Positions 38,052 to 50,644 of a DNA stretch of 64,000 nucleotides are shown here, one piece after another; the first letter of the stretch is position 1; every line of letters begins with the position of its first letter. Both the position numbers and the translations under genes were made by a program. Under the pieces are notes generated by a model. That model saw only the letters and a list, made by a program, of their open reading frames with translations, ran no database searches and was not told where the DNA came from. Source of the stretch: Lamellibrachia satsuma (taxonomy: Eukaryota > Annelida > Polychaeta > Sabellida > Siboglinidae). The stretch spans positions 2,898,501 through 2,962,500 of the forward strand of contig BSQZ01000053.1 in NCBI GenBank assembly GCA_033239005.1, read 5' to 3'.

Positions 38052-38114
38052 ATGGCTGTGGTGTCCAGCTGGGTAGTTTTAATCGTATTGACGTTGTGTG
38101 CGATTATCATTCAG
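38052..38114 (+). CDS. MNNL-DSL-FReD exon 1 (signal peptide)
   Basis: ATG at 38052 gives [20 protein letters not shown], a strong signal peptide, and a perfect donor CAG/GTAAGG in phase 0. An upstream ATG at 38013 opens only a four-codon uORF (MDDA). The 150 bp upstream is CpG-richer than its surroundings and may be the promoter. Confidence 0.88.
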
Positions 38115-50100: not shown

Positions 50101-50644
50101 TTTCGCAACCGATACGCAGATTAGCATTTAACGAAGGGTGTATAGTCTATTTCAGCCAGTAGCTAGATACCACCTCAATTTATTCTTGAAGGTGTTCAGA
50201 GTAGATGCTAGCACGACGTCTTCAGGACGATTGTTCCAAAAATCGATAACACGATTTCGGAGGAAGTGCGTATCGATATATGTACGAGAGTGCGTCTTCT
50301 GTAAGCCGCGGCCCGTTAGATTGCCACTACATTGATTTAAAAAAAAATCAAGATTCTTCCTGTTTAGGCCACTGAGGTATCCATATGCCTCACAGAGATC
50401 CGCCTTAAATCTTCTCTGTAACTGCTGTTATTGTCGGCTTGTTACGTTTCAGCAATACCGCTCCGGCTGGTGGTTCAACGACTGCTATTGGGCAAACCTG
50501 AATGGTCCTTACGTCACTGACTGGACCACAGACCACCCCGCTTGCCCGGATGGCATGTGCGTGGCTTGGCGGACCATCCCTGGGTATGAAGATTTCTCGC
50601 TACACGCAACAAAGATGGCGGTCCTTCCAAATCCGAGGTTTTAG
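38052..50644 (+). CDS. secreted MNNL-DSL-fibrinogen-domain protein (10 exons, 480 aa)
   Basis: Ten exons with GT-AG junctions and fully compatible phases give 1443 nt: 38052-38114, 40743-40897, 42079-42208, 42518-42657, 43347-43486, 43977-44096, 44860-45124, 49128-49255, 49739-49848, 50453-50644. Domains: signal peptide 1-24 (cleavage after ASA); MNNL about 27-165 (NPSG, G.CC, C...C...F..CL pattern); DSL 172-216 with six Cys ending GWMGYNC; Thr/Pro/Ser linker 217-249; FReD 251-480, with [22 protein letters not shown], the calcium-loop motif DRDNDNW, and disulfides expected C254-C283 and C415-C428. There are no EGF repeats and no transmembrane segment. Notch ligands carry MNNL-DSL followed by EGF repeats; FReDs are lectin-like or signalling heads. 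A secreted Notch-binding or Notch-modulating protein, or an immune FReD with a DSL-type tail, is inferred. Confidence 0.93.
38115..40742 (+). other. intron 1, packed with simple repeats
   Basis: It holds a CCACAACGA-type 9-mer repeat (38343-38480), CTG then GCC trinucleotide runs (38640-38815), a GC-rich unique patch (38865-39060), the hexamer satellite and a TA tract. Confidence 0.85.
39255..40488. repeat. GGCAGT / GGCAGG hexamer satellite
   Basis: About 1.2 kb of GGCAGT, GGCAGG and GGCGGT hexamers. Blocks (for example AGTGCAGGAGCAGTGGTAGT at 39796 and 40160) recur, so the array grew by larger duplications as well. The long Gly/Ser, Ala/Val and Pro/Leu frames are artefacts. It is followed by (TA)n at 40498-40622. 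Confidence 0.97.
40743..40897 (+). CDS. MNNL-DSL-FReD exon 2 (MNNL, first part)
   Basis: Acceptor TTGTGCTCGTAG/GCG, donor ACAG/GTACAG, phase 0 in and phase 2 out. It encodes residues 22-73: [19 protein letters not shown], the double Cys 47-48, C55, C60-D61, F64 and C67-L68, the signature of Notch-ligand N-termini. Confidence 0.9.
41413..41449. other. perfect 12-bp hairpin
   Basis: CCCGGATGTTTA, a 13-nt loop, then TAAACATCCGGG. It lies in intron 2 and has no T-run, so it is not a terminator. It may be a binding site or the core of an old foldback element. Confidence 0.7.
41575..41930 (-). repeat. repeat family R1 copy (inverted)
   Basis: The reverse complement matches 36262-36420: GGTGACCATGTTAACGTTTT, CATCAAAAATTCTGAAA and GTCAAAATCATATATTTC recur in the same order. 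It lies in intron 2 of the MNNL-DSL-FReD gene. Confidence 0.65.
42079..42208 (+). CDS. MNNL-DSL-FReD exon 3 (MNNL, middle)
   Basis: Acceptor TTGTCTTGTAG/G, donor ACG/GTGAGT, phase 2 in and phase 0 out. Residues 73-116 include [20 protein letters not shown], equivalent to the C.YGS...PV segment of Delta and Jagged, and NPMAFHFD, equivalent to the NP..F.F segment. There is an N-glycosylation sequon at N114. Confidence 0.88.
42275..42430. repeat. GTGC-type microsatellite (intron 3)
   Basis: A mix of GTGC, GTGT and ATGT tetranucleotides; frames rich in Cys and Val here are shadows. Confidence 0.9.
42518..42657 (+). CDS. MNNL-DSL-FReD exon 4 (MNNL, C2-like end)
   Basis: Acceptor CACATTCTTCCAG/C, donor ACGAG/GTATAC, phase 0 in and phase 2 out. 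Residues 117-163 include [20 protein letters not shown], matching the SL.IEAW..D beta-strand region of the C2-like N-terminal domain of Notch ligands. Confidence 0.88.
43347..43486 (+). CDS. MNNL-DSL-FReD exon 5 (DSL domain)
   Basis: Acceptor GATGTTGTAG/G, donor AAAG/GTACGT, phase 2 in and phase 1 out. It carries the first five DSL cysteines (C172, C182, C186, C198, C207) with spacings 9, 3, 11 and 8; Jagged-type spacing is 8, 3, 11 and 7. The aromatic motif of ligand DSLs (YY or YG) is replaced by WF at 176-177. Confidence 0.92.
43977..44096 (+). CDS. MNNL-DSL-FReD exon 6 (DSL end and Thr/Pro linker)
   Basis: Acceptor TTCTTAACACAG/G, donor AGAG/GTTAGT, symmetric phase 1-1. It completes the DSL with GWMGYNC and then encodes [20 protein letters not shown] and more, a likely O-glycosylated stalk. 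A symmetric 1-1 exon is the type that joins modules in exon shuffling. Confidence 0.9.
44146..44218. promoter_or_regulatory. 13-bp tandem array of five CRE palindromes
   Basis: TGACGTCA, the full CREB/ATF palindrome, occurs at 44151, 44164, 44177, 44190 and 44203 at an exact 13-bp period (TCATCATGTGACG), in intron 6 close to the DSL exon. Regulatory use is inferred; it may be only a small minisatellite. Confidence 0.55.
44235..44700 (-). pseudogene. LINE relic in intron 6 (polymerase C-terminus)
   Basis: Minus-strand frames read [30 protein letters not shown] and then [20 protein letters not shown], the widely shared W.....R.I...E....R.......R.GI...L......FGH..R pattern of non-LTR polymerases. 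Stops and frameshifts show it is dead. Confidence 0.75.
44860..45124 (+). CDS. MNNL-DSL-FReD exon 7 (FReD, N-terminal half)
   Basis: Acceptor CATATTTTTTAG/A, donor CGCAG/GTGAAA, phase 1 in and phase 2 out. Residues 250-338: C254...C283, [29 protein letters not shown] and [12 protein letters not shown], all diagnostic FReD blocks. Confidence 0.97.
45275..45530 (-). mobile_element. LINE family A, 3'-end copy A (intron 7)
   Basis: The terminal 250 bp of the LINE (GATGGCAAGTGGACAAGGAA, CATCTATGTGTAGCCCGCCC), including the last polymerase codons. It is truncated at its 5' end near 45500. Confidence 0.8.
45580..45960 (-). mobile_element. LINE family A, 5'-truncated copy B (intron 7)
   Basis: The frame 45948-45688 contains [20 protein letters not shown] and [16 protein letters not shown], the end of the polymerase. 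Its upstream border is a segment (ATAACGCCGGTATCCATCTA on the minus strand) that also follows the tail of the LINE at 26870. Confidence 0.85.
45965..48345 (-). mobile_element. LINE family A (CR1/L2-like), longest copy C (intron 7)
   Basis: A minus-strand non-LTR retrotransposon, 5'-truncated within the APE endonuclease (only the C-terminal EPLGSSDHN motif near 48235 remains). It then has linker, reverse transcriptase and C-terminal region: [41 protein letters not shown], and [10 protein letters not shown] with the catalytic FADD motif. Frame changes near 47345, 46920, 46600 and 46475 break it. It ends with a short untranslated region and a GTT/AAC-type tail. It is antisense to the host gene. 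Confidence 0.92.
48700..48975. repeat. 29-bp and 15-bp minisatellites (intron 7)
   Basis: Six units of TTTTAGGTGCATTGTCCCCA with an AACCACGAC end (48700-48880), then four GCCAGATAGGTACT-type units (48915-48975). Confidence 0.9.
49128..49255 (+). CDS. MNNL-DSL-FReD exon 8 (FReD, middle)
   Basis: Acceptor GTCATTTACAG/T, donor GCAG/GTAGGT, phase 2 in and phase 1 out. Residues 338-381: [20 protein letters not shown], then [20 protein letters not shown], the strands typical of FReD. Confidence 0.96.
49739..49848 (+). CDS. MNNL-DSL-FReD exon 9 (FReD, calcium site)
   Basis: Acceptor TTTCCCACCAG/G, donor GCG/GTACGA, phase 1 in and phase 0 out. Residues 381-417 end in [18 protein letters not shown], with the Asp residues of the FReD calcium-binding loop and C415. 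Confidence 0.96.
50138..50440 (-). pseudogene. LINE family B 3'-end relic in intron 9
   Basis: The minus strand reads [16 protein letters not shown] and, in another frame, [20 protein letters not shown] followed by [17 protein letters not shown], the classic C-terminus of CR1/jockey-type polymerases. It is a frameshifted fragment just upstream of the last exon. Confidence 0.8.
50453..50644 (+). CDS. MNNL-DSL-FReD exon 10 (FReD C-terminus and stop)
   Basis: Acceptor TTACGTTTCAG/C, phase 0 in. Residues 418-480: [20 protein letters not shown], with C428 pairing to C415, then an unusual extra pair C448 and C453, then [20 protein letters not shown] and a TAG stop at 50642-50644. Confidence 0.96.
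   Translation, partial: QYRSGWWFNDCYWANLNGPYVTDWTTDHPACPDGMCVAWRTIPGYEDFSLHATKMAVLPNPRF

Follow-up and report, generated by a model that had tools for sequence, protein, structure and literature searches.

A Notch-ligand-like head joined to a fibrinogen-related domain in a predicted secreted protein of the annelid Lamellibrachia satsuma

The heads of Notch ligands carry two functions, contact with Notch through the DSL domain and a calcium-dependent contact with lipid through the C2 domain. In the Jagged-1 crystal the side chains of D72 and D140 hold calcium (PMC3888931), and exchange of F207 for alanine abolishes Notch binding (PMC3888931), as does F204A in fly Delta (PMC8490980). The DSL genes of lophotrochozoans, mollusc Delta2 included, have been reported as expanded and diverged, some of them without EGF repeats or membrane span, and the main text of that report never mentions fibrinogen (PMC8166818). 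Here we describe a gene in a 64,000 nucleotide stretch of the Lamellibrachia satsuma genome (contig BSQZ01000053.1, positions 2,898,501 to 2,962,500 of the forward strand; hereafter the window, in whose numbering all positions are given). Its predicted secreted protein joins an MNNL-DSL head by way of a stalk to a fibrinogen-related domain (FReD). This arrangement very probably belongs to a single gene, and comparison with relatives suggests that the layout is conserved, without a name and, as far as the open-access literature goes, undescribed.

The predicted protein of 480 residues has three Pfam domains above the curated cut-offs, MNNL at residues 26-112 (E 1.7e-8), DSL at 172-217 (E 8e-10) and Fibrinogen_C at 252-476 (E 4.5e-58), along with a C2 match (PF00168) of 0.0087 that lies below the cut-off. 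The top 19-residue hydropathy stretch starts at residue 2 and marks the signal peptide. Past residue 40 no membrane span was detected, the maximum 19-residue Kyte-Doolittle mean being 1.33 (3.25 in the relative P0121, introduced below), and up to E 1 Pfam gave no EGF family. The stalk is 33 residues long, 17 of which are Thr, Ser or Pro, and the 18 cysteines beyond the signal peptide are divided evenly, with six each in MNNL, DSL and FReD. The last of these modules carries the cysteine pairs C254/C283 and C415/C428 and a calcium loop, DRDND, from D404; with the Fibrinogen_C domain, the pairs and the loop all present, it belongs to the FReD superfamily. The first-pass annotation, made from the letters alone, had proposed a signal peptide, MNNL, a six-cysteine DSL, a Thr/Pro stalk and a full FReD with its calcium loop in a secreted protein without EGF repeats or membrane anchor. 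Pfam, the residue counts and hydropathy confirm this description, and the three families it expected from a Pfam scan were all recovered.

The gene lies on the plus strand, and its splicing into ten exons is predicted from the genomic sequence and the relatives. Exon 1 (38052..38114) holds the start codon and signal peptide, as judged by its open reading frame (ORF), GT donor and hydropathy, and an in-frame stop at 38025 lies 27 nt upstream of the ATG. The MNNL/C2 head is encoded by exon 2 (40743..40897), which contains NGHCCDG and D61, at the position of Jagged-1 D72, and by exon 3 (42079..42208). Exon 4 (42518..42657) gives a loop with D127, at the position of Jagged-1 D140, and D129. The bulk of the DSL domain falls in exon 5 (43347..43486), and its end, GWMGYNC, is found in exon 6 (43977..44096) together with the Thr/Pro stalk. 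The FReD occupies exon 7 (44860..45124; C254 and C283), exon 8 (49128..49255), exon 9 (49739..49848; the calcium loop) and exon 10 (50453..50644), the last of which also has an extra cysteine pair (C448, C453) and the stop codon. A candidate poly(A) signal is found at 51099..51104 on the plus strand, by pattern match only, as the first AATAAA/ATTAAA past the stop codon.

All nine introns begin with GT and end with AG, and the joined coding sequence of 1443 nt is uninterrupted, with one terminal stop. The same sequence has 20 and 18 stops in its two remaining sense frames and 12, 23 and 19 in the antisense frames. The ten exons, canonical splice sites and unbroken phase that had been claimed at first reading are thereby borne out. 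Intron 6 (44097..44859, plus strand), at the junction between stalk and FReD, is in phase 1, and exon 6 is flanked by phase-1 introns on both sides, as is typical of exons that encode shuffled extracellular modules. A search of intron 6 for the hexamers AATAAA and ATTAAA gave none. Within intron 1 a GGCAGT-type repeat of more than 1 kb precedes a long run of (TA)n (39240-40620). A second copy of the gene within the window was also sought, and tblastn returned the ten exons themselves and four matches only at E 4.7 to 9.0.

When 5.8 billion proteins were searched, 131 of 6,029 candidates matched, and among the 120 listed two have MNNL, DSL and Fibrinogen_C together. P0002 is a protein of the annelid Owenia fusiformis whose product has no name, and P0001 is a JGI protein of 533 residues, read from a contig of 1,758 bases. 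Both align to 95-98% of the query, and in a Pfam rescan the order of the three domains in each agreed with that of the window. The rescan gave P0001 one EGF match between DSL and stalk (0.0063, under the cut-off) and P0002 none. That these two proteins unite the same three domains is the strongest support for a single gene, and it rules out a layout unique to the Lamellibrachia satsuma genome. The initial statement that no described family has this order stands for the open-access literature, where we found no description of an MNNL/DSL and fibrinogen-domain combination, but it must be qualified by the two proteins that share the order.

A profile search (7,995 scored, 130 matches) revealed no additional three-domain protein among the 120 matches listed, and added two FReD fragments of this kind, P0122, which is 60% identical to the FReD of the window, and P0159. 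When residues 20-225 were used as query in a word-based search, 379 candidates yielded a single match up to E 10, P0121, a 'fibropellin-1-like' protein of the cephalopod Argonauta hians; it should be noted that this search undercounts, as it missed P0001 and P0002.

The FReDs of this kind share further features. Beyond the NLNG motif the window and four of the 96 homologues scored, namely P0001, P0002, P0122 and P0159, have an additional C-x4-C pair; scoring covered those of the 160 FReD homologues in which an NLNG-like motif is followed by 30 residues or more. The calcium loop D-x-D-N-D is present in all five. In a tree of 67 rows, kept from 158 after thinning by identity, the five sequences group at 88/77; with the tail cysteines masked and P0159, P0149 and P0161 left out (64 rows), the window, P0001, P0002 and P0122 form a clade at 99/98, and the bootstrap was not fully settled in either run. 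In P0159 about 26 additional residues stand at the place of the exon 9-10 junction of the window and have the look of an unspliced intron. When the P0002 model was used in two fold searches, all of the best 50 rows in each were FReD structures, a result for the modelled FReD that is silent on the fold of the head.

Four heads of this kind were compared, those of the window, P0001, P0002 and P0121, of which the other three are 33-36% identical to that of the window. The head of the window alone matches fly Delta at 4.7e-5, and a profile of all four matches DLL1 (4xbm) at 1.2e-23, fly Delta (7alk) at 2.8e-23 and Jagged-1 (4cbz) at 1.8e-22. Identity between the four heads and the four canonical chains is 22-32%, and in a tree of these eight rows the two sets are split by a long branch at 100/100, because of which the root is unsure.

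In the comparison of single residues we used the Jagged-1 numbering as checked against the chain sequence of 4cbz. The D72 and D140 positions are occupied by aspartate in all four of these heads (D61 and D127 of the window) and by Arg/Lys and His in the three Delta-type chains. All four heads also have an added Asp two residues on, D129 in the window, and the resulting D-x-D compares with D757 and D759 of the Munc13-1 C2b domain (PMC3888931). On the Notch side, R203 and D205 are replaced or missing in the four heads and kept in each of the four canonical chains. The window has P, H and Y at the positions of R203, D205 and F207 and His at 209; P0002 has Leu at the F207 position, which is gapped in P0001 and P0121. 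The pattern across the four sequences points to a head in which calcium binding is kept and Notch contact is changed or lost.

We tentatively favour the reading that the protein is a secreted, calcium-dependent and two-ended recogniser, a bridging protein of a conserved family. Its ancestor would be a membrane Notch-ligand-like gene that lost its EGF repeats and anchor, as suggested by the weak EGF-like match in P0001 and by P0121, in which a head of the same kind goes with EGF repeats and a candidate membrane span; the FReD would have been acquired behind a phase-1 intron. The C2 head, with the calcium ligands of Jagged-1 kept and the D-x-D added, might dock with calcium on a phospholipid membrane, the stalk would hold both ends apart, and the FReD would bind a glycan or protein partner. 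In this way the protein might link a second ligand to a lipid surface, in recognition or in an opsonin-like role, and the canonical role as Notch ligand would be gone. Further, we speculate that this is an undescribed animal family in which a lipid-binding C2 head left Notch signalling behind and was joined to a FReD, giving a dual lipid-plus-ligand recogniser; this fuller proposal is possible but rather doubtful.

Several observations weigh against the bridging reading. In the head tree the unfused P0121 falls among the three fused heads, which as a clade by themselves are rejected (p-AU 0.031, approximately unbiased test), so that a single origin of the fused heads excluding that of Argonauta is unsupported. 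In that tree a FReD acquired once and then lost in Argonauta, a FReD acquired twice and a misplaced root would look alike, and the FReD clade favours one gain. Classic acetyl recognition by the FReD is doubtful, because the residue after its second cysteine is Tyr (Tyr or Phe in all four relatives) and not His, which we take to be defining for the acetyl-binding FReDs of ficolin, TL5A and FIBCD1; His is found at this place in 19 of the 149 proteins, out of 161, in which the motif was found. In the head, the D144 of Jagged-1 is unmatched in heads of this kind, and the window retains an aromatic residue, Tyr, at the F207 position. DLL1 has calcium-dependent stability and lipid binding (PMC3888931) without Asp at the D72 and D140 positions, hence these residues are no strict predictor. 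The Jagged-1 mutant D140A/D144A also ablates Notch activation (PMC3888931), and a kept calcium site therefore does not alone exclude a Notch role.

Among the alternatives the one that survives best is a diffusible Notch modulator, and we consider it conceivable, if on the unlikely side, and not far behind the bridging reading. As a decoy, antagonist or short-range agonist the protein would place its DSL head on Notch and its FReD in the matrix or on Notch, the latter as is reported for Scabrous, which has a FReD. The homology of the head to Notch ligands and the Tyr and His at positions 207 and 209 are in line with such a role, but canonical activation of Notch depends on a pulling force, which soluble ligands lack, and Pfam finds no EGF match in the window protein. 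The site for calcium, required in Jagged-1 for Notch activation (PMC3888931), is retained, and Scabrous has been reported to bind Notch and to promote its activity (PMC555533). On the other hand, retention of the DSL contact loop is to be expected of a Notch ligand or antagonist, and the loss of R203 and D205 in all four heads, with Leu or a gap for F207 in three of them, weakens the case. Of the roles put forward by the first-pass annotation, that of a Notch ligand or antagonist is borne out only in part, and that of a recognition molecule seems to fit the head residues somewhat better.

A purely structural or matrix role, with ordinary protein-protein modules at either end and without lipid, glycan or Notch function, appears improbable. 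The closest solved sequences to the FReD of the window are those of FGL1, tenascin-R and angiopoietin-1, all of which bind proteins, yet the calcium-site aspartates are kept in four of four heads at 33-36% identity to that of the window, and the calcium loop of the FReD in five of five. Far less probable still are two adjacent genes fused by a gene-model error, an idea that draws on the position of intron 6 exactly at the boundary of both modules and is set aside because P0001, on its single contig, and P0002 hold the same order within one protein, the intron phase is compatible and intron 6 is free of a poly(A) hexamer; moreover, the FReDs form one clade.

Ten further ORF stretches in the window were included in the Pfam scan, and reverse transcriptase was found in two of these and nothing else above the cut-off. 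One lies in intron 7 (45125..49127), where LINE-like sequence (long interspersed nuclear element) extends over 45300-48300, mainly on the minus strand, with an RVT_1 match of 4.6e-20 at 46924-47375. A related stretch, translated on the plus strand, was seen by eye at 26030-26704, and a second reverse-transcriptase fragment at 53336-53532 on the minus strand gave RVT_1 at 4.8e-7. About 3 kb at 14093-17000 is repetitive, has 66% GC in 14001-16000 and keeps several frames open on both strands, and could mislead gene finders. At 28143-28212 (minus strand), adjoining a tandem repeat, Rfam matched a tRNA at 33.2 bits (gathering cut-off 29) and ARAGORN reported no tRNA, hence this may perhaps be a tRNA-derived SINE (short interspersed nuclear element).

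If the bridging reading is true, a family that keeps the calcium residues and changes the Notch face would separate the two functions of Notch-ligand heads in evolution, and would let the role of the C2 domain be asked alone. If Notch is still contacted, the protein would be a natural fusion of the Delta and Scabrous module types and a candidate diffusible regulator. Either reading is directly testable in Owenia fusiformis.

With the canonical DSL ligands Delta, DLL1, DLL4 and Jagged-1 the window protein shares the MNNL/C2 domain and the six-cysteine DSL; it differs in having no EGF repeats, no membrane span, an altered Notch-contact loop and a FReD instead. The Argonauta P0121 has a head 36% identical to that of the window, with the same Asp pattern and the same loss of R203 and D205, but it has EGF repeats, a membrane-span candidate at 675 and no FReD by Pfam. 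DSL proteins of the P0121 type, with the calcium aspartates kept and the Notch-contact loop changed, are perhaps a separate class. With the FReDs of FGL1, angiopoietin-like proteins, ficolin, FIBCD1 and tachylectin-5A the window shares Fibrinogen_C, the calcium loop and two cysteine pairs, and the predicted P0002 model has their fold. From these FReD proteins the window protein differs by its extra C-x4-C pair near the C-terminus and by the DSL head at its N-terminal end.
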